From Tetrahymena thermophila SB210 (Eukaryota; Ciliophora; Oligohymenophorea; Hymenostomatida; Tetrahymenidae): DNA of 64,000 nucleotides. Every line of letters begins with the position of its first letter. Position 1 is the stretch's first letter. The notes under the pieces were generated by a model. The model saw nothing but the letters and a program-made list of their open reading frames with translations, did not search any database and was not told where the DNA came from. This document shows positions 3,278 to 63,400 of the stretch, one piece after another. The translations under genes and the position numbers were made by a program. Where the stretch lies: NCBI RefSeq assembly GCF_000189635.1, contig NW_002476365.1:620001-684000 (forward strand). Direction: 5' to 3'.

Positions 3278-3617
3278 TTTTTTTTTTTTGGTAAGTTTTA
3301 TAGTATTTTCAATTTAAGCAATTTTTATTGAAGATATGTTTATAGTTGGTTTGAAATTTCAGATGAAAATCTTTCTTACTTTTATTTTAGAAATATAAAA
3401 GAATATCTTTTTTTTTTCTTTCTATATTCTTATCAGAAAATAGTTTGCTTACTTCATAATTAATTGTGAGAATTTTATAAAATATTTATTTAACCATTTT
3501 CATTTTGACAAAACCAATCTGATATAAATAAAGATTGTAGCGACAACAATTAAATAAATTACCACAAAATGAAAAAGGAAGTAGAAGTTTCTCAAAAAAA
3601 AAAAAATAGATTAGAAA
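3278..3617. promoter_or_regulatory. Upstream region of the lactonase gene
   Basis: This AT-rich stretch lies just 5' of the minus-strand lactonase start and carries T-rich runs, including 12 T directly before the ATG on the plus-strand view. It presumably holds the promoter and 5' UTR. No specific element is identified. Confidence 0.3.
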
Positions 3618-3737
3618 AAAATAAATAATTAATTGATCAGACACGGCTCTAACCTACAGCGCCTTTCGGACTAGTAGGGGGGTCACTGCGAATTTAGAGA
3701 AACTAATTAATCATCAGTTGAATTAATTATTTATTTT
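3618..3737. other. GC-rich foldable island inside AT-rich spacer (candidate structured RNA)
   Basis: About 60 bases (3637-3690) are strikingly richer in G and C than the surrounding spacer. The island is bracketed by a perfect 17-bp inverted repeat, 3618-3634 against 3721-3737. Inside it, CTCTAA (3647-3652) can pair with TTAGAG (3694-3699), and CCTAC (3653-3657) with GTAGG (3674-3678). The whole could fold as an extended hairpin of about 120 nt. There is no open reading frame and I recognise no tRNA, 5S, snRNA or known ribozyme consensus. It sits between two minus-strand genes, about 340 bases upstream of the lactonase start. It could be a small non-coding RNA gene, or an inserted element with AT-rich terminal repeats. 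Confidence 0.35.
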
Positions 3738-4040
3738 ATTTTATCTTAACACATATAACATAAATTAATCAAAATCACTTTTTAATATTTCTTGCAAATT
3801 AAACTAAAAATATCACTTATTCTAAATCCACTCTGTTTTATGGGTGCTCTTAGATATAAATTTAATTAATTCAAACACTTTAAGCACATTTAAACTAATA
3901 TGCAAATTTTTTAATTTAATTTAATAAATTAATTAATTATTAATTTATACAAAATGGAAATTTCTTAATTTTATTTAATTATTTATTAATTATTATTTTA
4001 TTTATCATAAATTAAATTGAACTTAAAAAAAAATTTTTTT
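3738..4040. other. AT-rich spacer
   Basis: This is the 3' flank of the minus-strand F-BAR gene. I see nothing distinct in it beyond TTAATTAA-type low-complexity sequence. Confidence 0.4.
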
Positions 4041-38913: not shown

Positions 38914-39369
38914 AGTAAACTTATTATTTTAAATAATACTAAAATCATTTCTTAAAGTTTTCATTATTTTTGTATTATTTTTAAGAAATTGTTACTATTA
39001 AGTGTAAATAGCTCTGAAAAAGCCAATAAATGCTGACAATACAATTAAAATTCAAAAAAAATTATACTAATTCTGACTTGAAGTTTAATTGAAGTAATAA
39101 ATATTACAAATTTTATTCGAAGGTGAAAAGCAAAATTTTTTTCTTATCAGAATCTGTTTTTTGCCTATTCACGCTAAATAAATATTATTATTGATACAAA
39201 GAATTACATCTAATATATTAGTTAATCTAAAAGAGATATCAATAGATAATATCAACATTATTAAAAATTTTATAAAGAAAACACAAAAACTTAGTATACA
39301 AATATCCTGAAAGAAAATATAATCAATCAAAAAAAAAAATTATAATTTTAAAGCAGGTCATTAATATAA

Positions 39370-42300
39370 ATGGATAAATTAGGAAAGACTACGTTAGGAA
39401 ACACTAATGCGAAGGACTGTAAACTGAATGATGATATTTAATTAATTATGAGTAAGCATAAAGATGTTCCTCCAGAGGATATTAGGCCTTTAAATATAGA
39501 AATCTATTATACATAAGACCACATAGTAGGATTTTAGAGTGTTTACTAATTGATAGATTAAAAAAAAAAGAATAACAAAAAGAGAAAAATTAATGACAAA
39601 ATCACATTTGAGTTAGAAGGACATAAATCAAAAGGTTCTAAATTTTTCAGTGTTTAAAGCGAAGTAATAAATTTAGGGCCACAAGAGAATATTACAAAAA
39701 TTTTTGGCATTTCAACTGATCAAATAGATAAAATTTCTTTTACAACAGATTAAGGAAGAAGTTTTAATTTTCCTCCAAACAATCCTATTAATCCTAAGCT
39801 ACAATTAAATAGATAATTTTATTTCGAGCTTCCTGTGCAATCAAATATTGTTGGATTCAAAGTAGGCTACTCAAGATTCCTAAATTACTTAGAAATTATG
39901 TACAACATTAATCAATCTTAATAATAAAAAAATTAAAATTTTGCATTGAATTTAAGCTAAAACCAAAGCAACATGCAAGTTTCCTAAAGTATTCAAAATT
40001 AGAATAATGGCTTAAATGCCAATAATGTGCTTCCCAATTAGTAAATGAATTTATTTAATTAAAACTCTCAACAAAAATATGGGTAACCTGCTTTATAATA
40101 ACCAAATTTTAATTATCCACCAGCTCCTTAAAACTAACCACAACCTGAATAATAAAATGCACTATATAACTATCCTACTGAATCTTAGATAAATAGTCTA
40201 AGTAAGCCTTAAGCTACTGTCTAATAAAATAATATTAATAATCAGCAATACTAAGTATCAAACAACCAATTTTAACAAAATAACTTTTAAAATAATCAAT
40301 ACAACCATTAAAACATTTACTAACCTTAACAAAAATATTAACAATAATAAAATTTGTTTCCTTCTCTAAATTAAATGAATCAAAATTAAAATTTTGGCTA
40401 ATAACAATTTATCTAACAACAATAACTGCAGTAATAATATTATCCACCTGCACCTCCACCACCTGTAGATCAATCTTTTTTTGATTATCCTATGGCACCT
40501 TAAAATAACACAAATTAAAATCAAAGTTACCAAAATACAATTTAAAGGTCTAATACTATGCAGATTTCAAATAATTATGAAGGAAGCAATAGATATGGAA
40601 ACAATAATTTTTTAAATGGAGCGGGCTTGATTAGCAACAATCAAAATTAATTTAATTAGTAGAATGGTGGATTATATAACTAAAATATCCCTTTAATGAG
40701 AGGGTAATCGCTTTAAGTTTAACCTATTAAAGAAAATAATGAGGCATACATTGCATAAGAACTAAGAAGGATATTATTCTCTGAAAATCTTCTTGGTAAA
40801 TTAACTATAAAAGAGCATAAAGTAATTTAAAATCAGTCTTCTCTTATTGGAATGGTAGTTCCTGCTCATGTGGCTTATATTATTGAGGTAGAGAGTACTA
40901 TTTAACCTAATCAAGAAAAAGTCCTTGTTGAGAGAAGATATAAAGAATTCAATGCTTTGAGAGAATGTCTGATTGAATCACTTCCTGGATTACCAATACC
41001 TTTGATTCCTGTTAAATAACTAGGTAAAAAGATAGATGATAAATTGATATTAGAACGTAAAGAAGAGCTGTAAATATTCCTTGATGAAATCGTATTTTTC
41101 AACCCTATTTTTAAATTTAAGGGAACTTAGCTCTTCTTAGACCCAAAAATAAACACTAAAACTTTATTAAGCGAATTAGAAAAGATAAAAGATTCTGTTT
41201 CTGGAAAGAATTAAAAATTATTACTCGTTGATTATAAAAGAATTTTTGCCTGCATTGATAGCTATCAATTAAAGCAAAGTATGATAGATGAAGTTGAAGG
41301 ATTCAAAAACATGATAGTAAAAAAATAAGAAAAACTTGAGAAATTAGTAAATAAAGCTCAGTAAACCAAAGAAATGATGAATACTTATTATAGCTTCTTG
41401 AATAATTTCAAAAAAAATTTTATAAAAGACTATGAAGAGCAAGTCCTGTAGGGATATAAACTTATTGATGGAAAATAGCTTCAAGTATAAAATTAGAATA
41501 AATAATCTCAAATGAGCGATTAAGACATAATGGTTTAGCAAACTCATATTAGTAGTTAAAGATTTATCCTATAATACAATATTATACTTAGAGAGCATAG
41601 GATATTAGCAGAGTTCATAAGATTATTCTCTTTCTAAAATTAGCTTGTTTAAAATTATCTCAAGCAATCTTAAAAATTGCTCAAAACGAAAATTCAATCA
41701 GAGTCTATCGAAATTTAAACTGAGATGAATTACAATAAATGGATGGAGCTTTTCATCACTAAAATTTTATATTTCTTTTACATCCCTTTCCATAAAAGAG
41801 ACCAGACAAAAAGATATCTAAAAACAGTTAGCGGTGTTTCAGAAATTGAGAAGTAAAACAATGACAACATGCGCTAATACTGGATTTTTGTAATGCTTAG
41901 AGAGTAAATTGAATTTGAATAAGTATAGGCATAGTACAAAGAAAAAGATGACTATTTAGTAGCTCTTAAGGTATAATCTGAGATAAAAAAGGAAGAATAA
42001 AAAAAAAAATTATTCTAATAAACTCTATAAATGCAACAGTAAAGTTAATAATAAGATACTGGCCATAACTAAATGAGTTAGTAAAATTAATAATAACAAT
42101 AATTACTATAAAGTTAATAGCATTAGCTAAATAATTATTAATGTCTACCAAACGATAATTAATACTTATAGTAAACTCTAGGAAATCCTGCAGGTGTTGA
42201 AGATTTATACAATTACCCACCAGCCCAATCAGATTAAACCTAGCATTAAGATCCAAATACAGAAAATCACATGCAATTATATAGCTAATTAACAGAAGAA

Positions 42301-42822
42301 TAAAAAAATAATTAAAGTTCATAATAGTACAGTAATTATTTCTCTCATTATTAAAAACCTTAGCAGAGCCAGCTAAGCTATAATAATGTAATGAGCTAAA
42401 TTAAAAACTAAATTTCTAATACACCTCAAAATAGCTAACAGTAAGTGATAAGCCACTAGAATGAAAAAGATTAAGAATTCATGAATGAATTTGTTTAATA
42501 ACAAGCTAATTAAGGATAGCTATTTGTGAGCTCTTAGCCAAACAATCAAGCAAAATAAAAGCTGATAAACTAAAAAAATGATGATGTTTTCCAACAATTA
42601 TTTTTAGAGCAACTATAAATAAATGAAATTTCAGTTGATTAAATAAATAATGAATAGAATAATGCAGACATAAATCATGAGGAAAATTAGTAAAAAGAAC
42701 AAGAAAATTAATAATTTTTATAATAACAACAGTATTAACAACATCAAAATTAATAATAATATGAATATCAATAACAATAATAAGAAGAAGAACAAGTAGA
42801 AAGATAATTACTTTGCGAATGA
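39370..42822 (+). CDS. Q-rich sorting nexin with PX and BAR-like domains (intronless, 1,150 aa)
   Basis: One unbroken frame of 1,151 codons from ATG 39370 to TGA 42820-42822, containing well over one hundred TAA/TAG glutamines. Residues 1-190 are a globular unknown region. Residues about 195-430 are Asn/Gln/Pro-rich and low in complexity. The PX domain lies at about 480-595: PAHVAYIIEVES, the PtdIns3P-binding RRYKEF at 522-527, the proline loop LPGLPIPLIP, then LILERKEELQIFLDEI and FNPIF. A helical BAR-like region (about 605-875) follows, and the tail is again Gln-rich. Sorting nexins of this plan bind endosomal PtdIns3P and shape tubules in retromer-type recycling. The low-complexity arms may drive assembly or condensation, which is inference. 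The lack of introns contrasts with the intron-rich neighbours. Confidence 0.87.
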
Positions 42823-56284: not shown

Positions 56285-56779
56285 ATGTTAGCTAGAGTTA
56301 TTAGAAGAGCCTTTTGTTAATCTGCTCAAACTACATATGCTAATTAATTCACTATTGAAAACGACGTTGAAAACCTTAAAAAGTAGCTTACATGGAGGTA
56401 TTATTACGATTTATAGCTTAATTTATTAACTCTCAAATTTATTATTTTTAAGTGCCTAAATAAATTATGACTTTTTTTGAAAGATAACTGTGATTATATG
56501 TTAATAAAACAATAATCCTACTTTACTTTAAATAAAAATAATAGGGCTAGTAACATGGGTATGAGAGAGTTGGATTTGTTACTTGGAACTTTTGCTAAAG
56601 ACAAATTAAAAAACTTTTCTAAGGATGAATTAGTTCAATTTAATAAAGATGTGCTTGTTTTAGAAACTCCTGTCTTGAATAAAATTCTTTTGGGTCAACT
56701 CCCAATTCCTGAAGGAAATAAGTTTATCCCAATAGTTATTGAGTATGCTAAAAATAAACCTAAATATGTTTACTTTTGA
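56285..56779 (+). CDS. SDHAF2: Succinate dehydrogenase assembly factor 2 (Sdh5 family)
   Basis: Two exons, 56285-56397 and 56545-56779, give 115 residues. The hallmark is RASNMGMRELDLLLGTFAKDKL, cut by the intron after its first two bases, followed by a short helical stretch with LVLETPVLNKILLGQ. This is the compact Sdh5/YgfY fold that promotes covalent attachment of FAD to the succinate dehydrogenase flavoprotein. The N-terminus (MLARVIRRAFCQSAQ) is basic and amphipathic, as expected for a mitochondrial targeting signal. Length fits the family after removal of the presequence. TGA is at 56777-56779. Confidence 0.9.
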
Positions 56780-57427
56780 ATTATTTTATTTCTGTTATCC
56801 TAAATAATTTGCATAAGTATTATTATATCCGTAAAATAAAACAAGGCCTTTTGTTTAATAACAATTACTATTTAATTTTTAAAATGACATGTAAATTTTA
56901 TATTTAAAAAACAATTTTACTTACATTTTTTCTGATTTAAATGTAGTTATTTATCATATCAGTGAGTAAAAAACGATTTAATCATTTCATATTTAGATTT
57001 CTTGCTTGAATATTAATATTAAATTAACAAAATTCAAGATAAATTGATTTACTTTCAATAAAAAGATAATCTATACTAATTAGAGTTATAATTCATTATG
57101 ATTAAATTTCATTTTATGCATAATATATAAAGATTATTATATAAATACCTAGACTTAAAAAGCTAAATGCAAACATATGTGATCCATATAAACTACTTTC
57201 ATTAAGAATTAAGTTTGAAATATCCAGAGATCTTTTTATGATGTATTATTAATTAAAACCTTGCTACACAAGCTGATTAAAAAATAATTTATATGTAGCA
57301 AATTTATTTTATTACTTAAATTATTGCTTTAATATATAAAATTTAAATAGTTTACAATATTAGAGAAATAATTTTAAGATTTAACTTAATTTGTTTTTCT
57401 ATATCTAATTAAAAAATTAGAGCAGAT
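56780..57427. other. AT-rich spacer
   Basis: No gene is seen. This is the 3' flank of SDHAF2, leading to the palindromic element. Confidence 0.45.
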
Positions 57428-57545
57428 TTTGGCAGAGAATATGAAACCGTCCATTTTCTGTTCTCACCTCGAAACCCCTCAACTCTCTCGTTGAGGGGTT
57501 TCGAGGTGAGAACAGAAAATGGACGGTTTCATATTCTCTTTTGGC
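57428..57545. mobile_element. Perfect 50-bp-arm palindrome flanked by a 6-bp direct repeat (MITE-like hairpin)
   Basis: The arms 57434-57483 and 57490-57539 are exact reverse complements over all 50 bases, separated by a 6-nt spacer, TCTCTC. The element is far richer in G and C than the surrounding DNA. Directly outside each arm stands TTTGGC (57428-57433 and 57540-57545) in the same orientation, as expected of a target-site duplication. It has no coding capacity. It lies in spacer between SDHAF2 and the 3' end of the IMPACT-domain gene. Readings: a small foldback or MITE-type insertion, a hairpin RNA precursor for small RNAs, or an assembly foldback. The abrupt ends and the flanking duplication favour insertion. 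I know of no named element with this sequence. Confidence 0.7.
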
Positions 57546-57848
57546 CAATCCAAAAGTAATCAAAAATTTTTTATTGTTATTTCTTATAATTATTTTATTA
57601 TTTATTCAAATAATATTTTTGTCTCTAACTTTTATTTTGTAAATATTACAGAGAAAATTATTAATTAGATGAGGAGTCTGAGAGAATTTCAATTTAAAAA
57701 AAATTTAGTTGGCTGGACATAAACTAAAAGAAAATCAAAAGTTAGTAAAAATAATTTAGAATTTTTTATTTGAATAAATTCCATAAGAATTAAAAACAAA
57801 GATAGTTTTTTGATAATATTTAAAGTACTTTTAAATAGATTTAGATAG
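57546..57848. other. AT-rich spacer
   Basis: This is the 3' flank of the minus-strand IMPACT-domain gene. If its last intron is not spliced, the reading frame instead continues here to a TGA at 57689-57691. Nothing else is seen. Confidence 0.35.
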
Positions 57849-59883
57849 TCAGTTAAACACTTGACTATTCTTTTTTATTTTAGATGGTTAATTTATGTAT
57901 ATTTTATTAGGTTTAATTTAAAGTTCTCCACTTTGGATAAGGCTTTCATCTAGATTTGTAAAAATAATTTAATTTGTAATATATCATAAATAAAATATTT
58001 AAAATAATTACTTTAATATTCTGGGATTTTTTAAGATGATTCGACGTAATAATTTTCTTGGAGTGCTATGTTGTTATGTATTTGGTTGCTTTGATGATTT
58101 TAATTGAAAAGAGTTTAAGAGTTACTAACATTTTTTGCAGTGTTAGACTAACTTTAATTATAAATATCAGGAATCATTCCTTAAGACATTGACTTTTAAT
58201 ATTATTAGAAAAGCTAAAATTGTTTCTCTGTTTCTTAAAGCTTTCTTAATGTTTTTCCATTCTCATAGCTTCTCATTAAAACTTAAATAAAACCAAATAA
58301 AGGTCCAAGTGCTTCATTCTATTTGCTGACAGAGTCCAGAGTAAGTCTTTTATCTCCTCTTATCATTTCATTTATAATTTTTATTTTTTATTCATTTAAA
58401 TTGTTAACTGTTAAACCTTCCAAACCGCTTTTTAGATCATACTCATATGCTAATTGCTCTCTAATTGTTTTTGATAATTTAAATTATTCATTTATAAACA
58501 AAATTCAACAATTATAATTTAATTTGAATCTACCTTGATTAAACATCTGCAATTATCATAAATATATTTAGGAGCTTTTCAGTAAGTTTATTCTAGTCAT
58601 ATTAAATAGCAAATCTAAGTTGTAGATAATCTCTTGCATCTATAGAAGATAATATCTTTTCTAACTAATATGCTTATTACTTTAGCTTATCGCCTGTGGA
58701 AAATTGATTAATTAGATATAAAATAAATAGAATTTGTATTTTACCTAAAATTTTTATTTCTTTCCTTCTTTCTATTACTTCCTGTGATATTTAATCACTT
58801 TTATGCTTTAAGAATGTTGGCTTAGAATTGTAAAATATATGATTTGGCCTATTATTTTAACGATCTTACGGCCTAGCAAATTTCGGTTCTTATTGTAGCT
58901 ATGGTAAGTGATATATTTGCTTTTTAAGCTTAACTTATCTCTTAATCTGCATAGATGAACTCTCTGGGAGAAAATTTGTGTTTTCACTTATGTTCTCTAT
59001 TTCTGATTACACGACTCTCGAATACAAATTATTAAGAAGGTCCTATTTATTAAATGGATCAATTACTATTATTATGTTGAAAGGTATTTTCCTTAAAAGC
59101 TAATAGAAATTTTAATAACCTTAGCTCTTTCAACAATAATCCTGAAATGAGTAGCCTCAAATTTATTTAATGGATTATATTATTCTATTCCCACTATTAT
59201 AAGAACATTTTCTACATCTAAAATTTATTTATAAATAGTTAATTATTGATATTATTTTTTTGTGAAACAGTATTAATTTGATTAGTAATATATATTAAAT
59301 CAACAGCTATATTGTAATTCATTTTACTAAATTTTTATAAAAGATGCATAAGCTTTTCGCCACTTCCTTCAATAGTAGGATCCTCTTGATATCCTTCAAC
59401 AAATTTTGGCTTATTTAATAATAAAATTTTCTAAAACCCTGAAAATATACGAATTTTTTAATGCAAATTCTTATTGATTGTTAATTGAAATATGATTACA
59501 TTCTTATATATTTTAAATTGAGATTACCTCTAATTTTGGAACGTCTTACGTAACAAAAAATGTAGGCGTGACATAAAGCCTGAAAGCATATACAATTTTG
59601 TTATATTTTTTGAAATTTTCTTTCTCTTTAAGGTAATATATTATTTTTTCTATCTGCTCTATTTGTTAATAAAAATGAGGTAATTCAAAATAATTTGAAT
59701 AAAAATAATTACAATTAATATAAAATAATAAATACCTTTTTGAGATATCGCGCTGCAAAATGCTCTAAAAGTGCCATAACTATTTTTCACTTGATTTCCA
59801 TAAATAATACTCTTGATGAAGTTTTATTCTTCTTCTTCCTATTGAGTCAAAGGCGCTCCTTAATTTTAATCTAATCCATCCAT
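57849..59883 (-). CDS. IMPACT/YigZ-domain protein with long C-terminal extension
   Basis: ATG at 59883 (MDGLDQNQGAPLTQQEEEEQ); several introns. The first half follows the IMPACT/YigZ fold: IYGNQVKNSYGTFRAFCSAI, EQIEKIIYYLKE, IVYAFRLYVTPTF, then GYQEDPTIEGSGEKLMHLL and ENVLIIVGIEQYNPLNKFE. These correspond to the K.S.F.A, yAyRl, dDgE..G.a..LL and vvVsRwyGG..LG...F blocks. Several normally conserved positions differ: the HN before the tyrosine is absent, DDGEP is replaced by DPTIEGSGE, and RWYGG by EQYNP. IMPACT proteins block Gcn2 activation by binding Gcn1; an RWD domain is not seen here. The second half is Gln/Lys-rich, with a helical FINEQFKLSKTIREQLAYEY region. The end uses a final intron before TGA 57849-57851; without it the frame stops at 57689-57691. 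Confidence 0.62.
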
Positions 59884-60465
59884 AAATTATAAATACCTGA
59901 CAATTTCTAAATAACTATATTCAATTTTTAGTATCTTCAATTAATTTACAAAGAAAGTGTTATTAAAATCACTAGTTGATTAAATTTGTTTATTTGTTTT
60001 ACTCTTAGCAATACATTTCGCAGCAATGTTAAATATTAATAAAAAACTATATAAAAAAAACACTAATTTTTAATTGCTTCAATTTGTTCATGCAATATTC
60101 TAAAATCATTTTATAAAAATTTATTTTTTTTTTTAAATTAATTTTTAACAGTAATTTTTGACAATTTAAGATTAATAAGTTTTATTATGAATTTTATCAA
60201 TTAAGCTGTGTGATTAAGTGAAGATACTATTTATTTTAAAAGAATAAATTTCTACTTAACTTTTTTTTTTTTCAGTTTTATAGTTCTTACTTAATGAGCT
60301 AGTTAGCTACATTTAAATAAAATTCCTTTGAAAATAGATAATTATAAATCTAAAAATGCATACAAATTTTGTTTATTCAACTATTATTTTAAAAGATTAA
60401 AATTTCAGTTTATAAACTGAATTAAAATATAATTAAAATCAAAAAGTGCTTGCACTTATATAAAT
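59884..60465. promoter_or_regulatory. Divergent intergenic region between IMPACT-like (-) and AXDND1-like (+) genes
   Basis: About 580 bases between divergent ATGs; both promoters should be here. T and A runs only; no defined element. Confidence 0.35.
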
Positions 60466-63400
60466 ATGTAGAATATTAATGAACCAGTTAAACTGCCTAG
60501 TTTACCAGACTAGGAAAAGCTGTATACATAGCCTAATTCGTTTAGATTAGGCGAATACATTAAAAAGAATACACTTAATCATTACACAAGCTAGTAAACA
60601 TTTTTTCAACAGAATTCAAAAAAGTAGAATAAAAGAAATAGTGTACATAATGAATTTTAAGCTCCAGGTCCTTCCTTTTTTAATAAACAAAATAAGTAAG
60701 TGCAGTAAATGTACCAGGAGAAGATGGAATATAATTAGCTATAGAAGAATAAGTTTACCAAGATAAATAACTCCTCGAATTCGATCATGACAGTTTCAAG
60801 TGCTGATGGTGTAGGTCAATATGATAGCTCATCAGCAATCTCTCCTGCAAATTTCTTCTTGAATCAAAATTAAATCTAAAAAAATGGATCCTTCACTATG
60901 AAAGAAGCATTTTTGAATTCTACTCAATCTTCAAATCAATTGTATTCTAATAAGAATAATGTTTTTAAGTTTTACCAAACGAACTATACTTAATTTGATG
61001 AAACTAAGCAAAGTCCTACTAATTAATCACTGTCATAAACTCACTAACAGATTAATGAGAGTATTTAATTATAAAAGTAGAAAACTTTAGACAAAATTTT
61101 AAAGCAATCTTTTAGCAATATCTCTAACCTGCAACAAAGGAAAAAGTCAGACTAAAATAAAGATAACCCTTTTGGCAAATAATCTTCTATTTTAACTACT
61201 AAAAGTCCTCTAATAGATATTACTTAGATAGAGTAAGTTTGCTACCTTCGCTCAGCTTAAGCAAAGTAGGACTTTTACTTGTAGCTGTTAGGCACAAATC
61301 CATAAAAGAGTGAGCCTCAATACACTCCAAATATTGAGGAATTAAAATGGAAAATTAATTAATAAAAGTAAACTCTTTAAAATTTAAATTAAATAAATCA
61401 ATAAATAATTCTAACTAACTCTGAATTTGCATACTTGAAAAAATACATTTGAATCAAGTTAGTTTATCTTTATTTAGATGATTAAACAGTTAAATTAATT
61501 ACTGCTAAATTACCTAAATTTCTTATTAATTAAAATTTATTTTTCTTTTCTTGAGATTTAAATAAAGACTACTTTTTTTATTCTAAAGACATATCAACGT
61601 GGATGACTTTTTTGTGCAGTAAATAAAAGGCATCACTACTACCCTTAATAAAGAGAGCATTGTTTCTCATAGTAGCCAGAATAAGAACTTAAAGAAAAGC
61701 ACAGAAAGAAAAGATATGTTTCTTTTAAATTTATGGATGGAGTAGATGCTAAATTAAGTATTCGAAAAAGAAAAAAAATATTGGAATTATCAGGAATTCT
61801 TTGATGAAATTGAACTTATTTATGCAGGATGTATGAAAGAAATAGCAAGGTAATTTTTATCTGTTAATTATTATTTATTAATTTTTTAATTTTTTAACAG
61901 ATAAGTCAGTCTTGACTGCAGCGAAAGAGGGTAGATGCTTACTAAAATATGGGATATATATTCTTCGATAGTCAGAAATTTCATAGAAAAAAGCCAAAAA
62001 GAATTTTTAAAAAAAGAATTAGAGCAAATTAATTTGCAAAGGTCCATTTAAAATGTTTATATCAGAGATTTGAAAAAAATGCAAGAGTAGTAGGATAAAT
62101 TAAATGAGCTTTTAGAGCTTAGGAATAATTAAATCACAAAAGCAAAAGCAGAAAATAGGTAATTTAGTCATTTATTCTATTTGTGAAATGGCTTCTAAGT
62201 AGATATTTTAATTAAAAGGTATTTGAGTAAGAAATGGAAAAAGACAGAAAAAGCTCTCTAAGTTATTTAAGATGACTTTAATGCCCAAATAAATCTTTAT
62301 GATGAAGCACTCAAAGAAATCACATACCTGAAAATGCAGTAAGAAGAATATATTTTGCAAGATTAAATCAGACAAGCAGCTGCGAGTTCAGACGATGATT
62401 ATACCTAAGCAACTTCAGCTGGAAATGTAATTAATTTATCAAATTATAATATTCTTCAATAATTATTTCTTATGATTAGGAAATATATTTTTTTCTTAAG
62501 ACAGTGAATATTTTTGTATAAAAAAAATAAAAAGTAATAAAAAAAGGATTTTAAAACTAAATTGAAAAAAACATAAAAATTAAAAAATTTTAATCAAAGA
62601 TTGAATTTTTTGGTGAAGAAATCAAAGTTTTTTTTTCTAATTTTTAATCTTGAATTAAATATATTTTCATACAAATAAAATGATGATATTTTTATTAAAA
62701 GTCAAAATTTATGCTTGAAATTGAGAAAATTAAAATTGAGCTATAAAATCAATATTAATTTCTCTACATGGAAGAAAAAAAGAAACTGGAAGAGGCTTAT
62801 ATTATTCACAAGCAGAACTAAGATAAACAGCTGATTCTTGCATAAGAAATAGAACAAGAAGTAAGATTTCCTAATATTTAATTAAACAGTTTAATTTTTT
62901 TCATAAAATAAGGAATCAGGGCTTGAAAAAAATTAGCTATAGAGAATTCAAGAATACAATTTCGAAGACGTTTTATTGGCTAATATTGTAATTAATTTAT
63001 TTGATGAATAAATAAGTTATTAATTGAATATTAATTTAATTTTTACTAAAATGCAGGGAGTTGATACATCTGACTTATGTTAAAAATAGTCTTTTGGAAC
63101 TGACACATGTGATTTAGTTGAAAAATAAGATAAATGCATAAATGTAAATATATAAAAGCAAATGAAATATTAGTCAACTCAAACAGTTTGCACTACAGAA
63201 AGTAAAGCACAGCAAGTTAATATAAGGACCATCATAAATGAAAATAAGGTAAATATTATTTTTTTGAACAATAAATTAGAAAATGTCAATGCTTTAATTT
63301 AAATCCATCTAATAATATAATTTGCTAACAATATTTATAATGTTATTCGTTTTGCTTTTTAATATTTGTGAATTGATAATTACAACTAAAAAAATTTAAT

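Follow-up and report, generated by a model that had tools for sequence, protein, structure and literature searches.

During formation of the macronucleus of Tetrahymena thermophila the germline genome loses about a third of its sequence (PMC6547420, PMC5182062), and the internal eliminated sequences (IESs) of the main class are reported from intergenic DNA and introns (PMC5666084). Many IESs have inverted repeats outside both ends at nearly equal distances; these set the IES boundary in both cases examined, where their removal loosened it, and for 53.58% of IESs the reported variation between strains does not exceed 20 bp (PMC6547420). Hamilton et al. 2016 (PMC5182062) report transposon termini that are retained in the macronucleus through incomplete IES excision, together with ~1 Mb of putative transposon sequence that is apparently retained and sometimes biased to element ends, a report repeated in PMC5666084. 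MITE copies are given as 8,000 in Blepharisma and about a dozen in Paramecium (PMC9942856). The locus described here is a long palindrome in a macronuclear assembly of T. thermophila. It is read tentatively, and at somewhat less than an even chance, as a footprint that programmed DNA elimination left in the soma, i.e. the joined tips of a germline transposon.

The palindrome covers 106 bp (57434-57539) of the window, the whole 64,000-nucleotide stretch of DNA that was analysed. Its two 50-base arms pair exactly at 50 of 50 positions, with 0 mismatches, around TCTCTC (Table 1). Composition sets it apart: 44.3% GC, as against 18.0% at 57000-57433, 18.2% at 57540-58000 and 22.8% in the window as a whole. 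The preliminary description had noted a mismatch-free palindrome of this plan (50 + 6 + 50) at the same position, with TTTGGC directly outside both ends and with more GC than its surroundings, and these three observations were reproduced. A direct repeat of 7 bp is an alternative reading, because the last base of the right arm is T; TTTTGGC (57427-57433 and 57539-57545) then takes that T from the arm, and the insert shrinks to 105 bp with an asymmetry of one base. The computed DNA fold of 57434-57539 is -61.6 (z -22.8). A small dyad, CTTTTGG-CCAAT-CCAAAAG, lies at 57538-57556; since it is formed by the right flank and the last two arm bases, the putative empty target, ATTTTGGCCAATCCAAAAG, likewise contains TTTTGG...CCAAAA.

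Table 1. Positions in the window of the palindrome, its direct repeats and the neighbouring frames.
Feature	Position	Strand	Remarks
Sdh5 (succinate dehydrogenase flavinator) coding stretch, neighbour	56555..56779	+	PF03937, E 1e-9, 38.6 bits (cut-off 27)
Direct repeat TTTGGC, left copy	57428..57433	+	TTTTGGC (7 bp) if counted from 57427
Left arm	57434..57483	+	50 bp, starts AGAGAATATG; exact reverse complement of 57490-57539
Left arm, read as terminal inverted repeat tip	57434..57483	+	Second genomic copy not found
Spacer TCTCTC	57484..57489	.	6 nt; putative junction of a programmed excision
Right arm	57490..57539	-	50 bp, finishes CATATTCTCT; read as second terminal inverted repeat tip
Direct repeat TTTGGC, right copy	57540..57545	+	TTTTGGC (7 bp) if counted from 57539
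Putative open frame, neighbour outside the element	57689..58504	-	Pfam search without match

The CCCCAA repeats found at six of the seven contig starts that were read show the assembly to be macronuclear, and the attribution to a ciliate macronucleus made in the preliminary description thus holds, on the evidence of these contig starts, a Tetrahymena snoRNA and a telomerase exon. The latter matches the T. thermophila telomerase chain of PDB 6d6v at 135 of 137 aligned residues; the mismatched pair stands at the very beginning, where the frame leaves an apparent intron. A further telomerase piece of 16 residues has 15 identical. The start of one 2.2-Mb contig (C17:1-600) is without telomere repeats. 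The snoRNA, a copy of the Tetrahymena C/D snoRNA TtnuCD25 at 3636-3722 (-, 109 bits), differs from the Rfam consensus by two 1-nt gaps and a few letters. A 30-nt inverted repeat of 83% (3612-3641 / 3714-3743) flanks the snoRNA and overlaps its ends. Another inverted pair, of 25 nt and 88% and containing CCATCC, is separated by 1.8 kb (59869-59893 / 61723-61747). The + frame at 39127-42822 has 1231 aa and is open under the ciliate code only, with 158 codons that differ from the table 11 reading; for neither this nor a second long frame of the window did the PDB yield a relative at an E of 1e-5 or less.

The stop codon of the Sdh5 stretch, a neighbour outside the element, ends 655 bp ahead of the palindrome. 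Convergent genes are likely here; should the frame on the other side be a gene, the palindrome is enclosed by the 3' ends of both. A non-coding position, favoured by flanks of 18% GC, is likely. It falls short of proof because a + frame in the ciliate code, of which TGA is the sole stop, runs across the palindrome (57242-58039).

Palindromes of this kind are rare in the sampled DNA. A scan with loops up to 30 covered 307,976 bases in 61 stretches (the window, the loci and 100 kb extra), or 0.3% of the genome; within it the runner-up among perfect arms measures 15 bp and consists of A and T only, and no other perfect palindrome with GC of at least 30% and arms from 12 bp was found. The longest perfect arms in three mononucleotide shuffles of the window were 11, 12 and 13 bp. 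Of 63,876 window positions, 92 have the same 6-mer on both sides of a 106-bp interval; at just one of them, the palindrome site, does the 6-mer contain three or more G/C.

The direct repeats are flush with both arm ends, which is a mark of insertion. The adjoining flanks are otherwise unrelated and stand in direct repeat, and insertion therefore is the reading adopted, the arms then being terminal inverted repeats (TIRs). The same feature bears on a very unlikely origin of the palindrome as an assembly or library artefact, such as a foldback or a missed hairpin adapter, which would suit a palindrome known from one assembly. Foldbacks mirror their flanks; here the adjoining flanks are unmirrored and carry a direct repeat, by which a foldback is disfavoured. 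Moreover, the imperfect inverted pairs that span the site are rich in AT and stand at unequal distances, both arms end at 50 bp, and the contig (C172), of which the window is positions 620001-684000, continues to 762,267 bp. As to the mobile element proposed in the preliminary description, both the direct repeats and a composition foreign to the surroundings support its insertion. The specific proposal, a non-autonomous hairpin transposon spared from elimination, is just one of two readings that fit.

On the reading that is ranked first, a germline transposon with TIRs of at least 50-56 bp would have integrated at ATTTTGGCCAATCC, duplicating TTTGGC (6 bp, perhaps 7). In the developing macronucleus the body of the transposon would be excised as an IES, with boundaries ~50-56 bp inside each end, and the two tips would then be joined to give a perfect palindrome; the 6-nt loop would represent a slightly asymmetric junction, and the target duplication would be left untouched. 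If the TIR is perfect past 50 bp, all six loop bases would have to come from one side, since at position 51 bases from the left and the right would clash. A near-symmetric cut within two identical TIRs, 6 nt off, appears plausible because the inverted repeats of IESs are near-equidistant and boundary variation between strains is small for the 53.58% of IESs cited above. Joining of transposon tips in the soma would explain a perfect palindrome without germline replication and would also explain compositionally foreign arms. It would answer as well the puzzle of stability raised in the preliminary description, since a palindrome so made need not pass through the germline. The apparently intergenic position appears to fit the main IES class.

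In the macronuclear assembly (101,022,631 bases, 445 contigs) the full palindrome and its right half give only self-matches. Near-matches were sought with three words of 18-19 bases, which between them span 42 of the 50 arm bases, at up to 3 mismatches and with reversed patterns as the control. The counts, which are lower bounds, were at least 27 for the arm words vs at least 37 for the control, at least 6 vs at least 7, and at least 73 vs at least 108; two matches in each arm-word search are the palindrome itself. There is thus no excess of arm near-matches above the control in the macronuclear genome, and the closest other matches among those listed have 2 mismatches in 18, at three places. 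Elements with the same outer 8 bp and a total of 91-121 bp occur at three places including the palindrome, a number equal to the control. The joined 15-base empty target has no exact match elsewhere in the macronuclear genome; with one mismatch it occurs at three places, the control giving 0 forward and 1 reverse. Repeats of the flanks elsewhere are short and partial (two places at 78% and one, of 40 bases, at 90%). Two checks proposed in the preliminary description, for further copies of the arm and for empty sites, were in this way carried out in the macronuclear genome, and yielded neither a second copy above control nor an exact second copy of the joined target.

This outcome counts to some degree against the joined tips: a many-copy germline transposon should leave further tips in the macronucleus, and over the 42 of 50 arm bases searched none was found above the reversed-pattern control. 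The transposon between the arms, the central claim, is a putative germline element. Its proposed boundaries can be compared with the boundary repeats reported for IESs, which are G-rich or C-rich at ~51 or 38 bp from the junction, with TACCNT ~62 bp out (PMC6547420). The arms have GAGGGG/CCCCTC at 57493-57498 and, in mirror position, at 57475-57480, 3 nt from the loop; the boundary motif GAGGG is not found in the palindrome at the reported distance of ~38 or 51 bp, and TACCNT was not found in the arms on inspection by eye. The missing motifs are weak evidence because the motif groups cover only ~57-60% of IESs (PMC6547420). A tip of 44% GC is also unusual in a window whose 2-kb steps range from 18.7 to 27.4% GC, and this too counts against joined tips.

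The other fitting reading, a possible one held with some doubt, is a MITE composed of TIRs only: a palindromic, non-autonomous element that would be identical in germline and soma, would escape recognition by the elimination machinery and would be moved in trans by a transposase generating 6-7 bp duplications. The target-site duplication TTTGGC on both sides would suit such an element, as would the TIRs around a short spacer (50 + 6 + 50, 0 mismatches), a plan that resembles human Made1 with its two 37-bp TIRs around 6 bp (PMC1784062). Palindromic IESs that are possibly MITE-derived have moreover been described in Blepharisma, and MITEs in Paramecium (PMC9942856). MITEs are however usually multicopy, and the arm was found at one locus in 101 Mb of macronuclear DNA, where an autonomous partner with the same tip was not seen above control either. 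A MITE of this form would also require that a perfect 106-bp palindrome survive germline replication. The two readings are close, and the joined transposon tips are ranked first.

The perfection of the arms says little of their age. At 7.61e-12 germline substitutions per site and division (PMC5585995), 50 arm pairs without a mismatch set an upper bound of ~3/(100 x 7.61e-12) = ~4e9 divisions. Intergenic diversity in T. thermophila is reported at 0.6-1.2% (PMC10868616), and a perfect match over 100 bases therefore allows for an age similar to that of common variants. Arm perfection is thus no proof of a very recent event, and the conclusion of the preliminary description that the palindrome must be either recent or maintained does not follow, given this bound of 4e9 divisions and the possibility that a palindrome made of joined tips bypasses the germline.

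Two further explanations were weighed. In one, a one-off repair event, a short foreign or germline-limited single strand would fold back, be copied as a hairpin and be captured at a staggered break, the direct repeat being made by fill-in. This is improbable as a whole: a single locus and a source sequence that was not found agree with it, but it needs three unlinked steps, whereas transposition yields a flush 6-7 bp duplication and a palindrome in one. Among possible sources, at E up to 10 phages have no match to the whole palindrome and E. coli genomes none to the palindrome extended by six flank bases; a 35-aa translation across the palindrome has no plasmid match. The right half with its flank matched eight phage records at 80-90% identity (E 6), and the palindrome matched 36 Sinorhizobium plasmid records by one 20-base match (E 3); both are read as chance. 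A scan of prokaryote genomes gave three stretches with an exact 20-mer, two viral scans gave two and one stretches with an exact 17-mer or 18-mer, and another viral scan gave none; a less specific viral scan listed at least 120 stretches. Placed in register over the 50-base arm, the six stretches with an exact 17-mer, 18-mer or 20-mer agree with it at 25-30 positions and are likewise attributed to chance.

In the other, very unlikely and the least probable of all, the palindrome would be a hairpin RNA gene that supplies small RNAs to a silencing pathway, an idea of the preliminary description that gains little from the data. Its transcript would indeed fold into a 50-bp stem (57420-57560, computed RNA fold -100.4 kcal/mol, z -17.6). 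Against such a gene stand the near-matches of the arm, which are not above the reversed-pattern control and at best, among those listed, comprise the three places with 2 mismatches in 18; the arm therefore has no obvious target in the macronuclear genome. Rfam over 57300-57700 at E up to 1 gave 20 matches, 13 of them to microRNA families and 0 at the gathering score, and such sub-threshold microRNA matches may be what a perfect hairpin gives. At gathering score the window has a single Rfam match, the snoRNA, which lies far from the palindrome.

Should the joined tips be confirmed, perfect palindromes with short direct repeats in the soma would mark germline transposons in ciliates, and they would also show how deep inside the elements the elimination machinery cuts. 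A stronger form, which is unlikely, has the palindrome absent from the germline and remade at each macronuclear development, because the transposon's own inverted tips would carry the signals that set the cuts; a self-delimiting transposon would in that case stamp a hairpin and a target duplication into a somatic chromosome every generation, and somatic tip-to-tip palindromes would be readable scars of germline transposons that are invisible in somatic assemblies. If instead the palindrome is a MITE, an element with 6-7 bp duplications would be retained in the Tetrahymena somatic genome. Among the open-access papers listed for Tetrahymena palindromes with target duplications or excision footprints, no title or abstract opening describes a tip-to-tip palindrome of this kind, and the arm sequence, as six words of 14-15 letters, was not found in open-access literature text.

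Among known transposon families, Polinton termini start with AG, and those of the palindrome are AG..CT. Duplications of 6 bp are typical of Polinton-type integrases (PMC10045372), Maverick/Tlr elements make up 1.9% of the T. thermophila germline genome (PMC5182062), and Tlr elements are described as being without PolB. The palindrome thus shares with Polinton, Maverick and Tlr a 6-bp target duplication (7 if read one base wider) in a species with Tlr and Maverick in its germline, and differs in being a tip without a link to any such element. PolB (PF03175) and the rve integrase (PF00665) gave 0 matches at E ≤ 0.01 in the macronuclear genome, a result that is expected if the elements are germline-limited and weighs neither way on the link; because rve integrase was not found there, the case for Maverick/Tlr comes from the length of the duplication. 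Other families were considered and set aside. IS3EU and GingerRoot have 6-bp duplications with TA..TA termini, occasionally TG..CA in GingerRoot (PMC10045372), which are not the AG..CT seen here. Dada makes 6-7 bp duplications and inserts into small-RNA genes, its U1 and U6 families being described without TIRs (PMC3706591); here the TIRs are perfect, the window is without tRNA and the site without an Rfam family at gathering score. The exon IESs of the piggyBac-like TPB1/TPB6 type have TTAA direct repeats and a CACTTT-like inverted repeat (PMC5182062), in place of which TTTGGC and AGAGAA are found. The rDNA M-repeats are 42-bp inverted repeats with a 28-bp spacer (PMC5182062), as compared with arms of 50 and a spacer of 6.

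Among described palindromic elements, Made1 of primates is hairpin-forming, a 6-bp spacer separating two TIRs that are perfect or nearly so (PMC1784062). Its plan is nearly the same at three quarters of the size (37 + 6 + 37 vs 50 + 6 + 50); unlike the palindrome, with its 50-bp arms, 6-7 bp duplication and one copy found, Made1 is described as Hsmar1-related, with 37-bp TIRs and many copies. The palindromic IESs and MITIES of Blepharisma are likewise short palindromic ciliate elements between direct repeats, but they are eliminated from the soma, whereas the palindrome sits in a somatic assembly (PMC9942856). Such IESs, for which an origin from MITEs is suggested there, are a described ciliate form, of which the preliminary description was not aware. 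The closest parallel to joined transposon tips is the retention reported by Hamilton et al. 2016 (PMC5182062), in which, as here, tip-like sequence is present in a macronuclear assembly and any element body is missing; there it takes the form of a bias in some of the curated families, and here the two tips of a putative germline element would be joined into one perfect palindrome within an intact target duplication.
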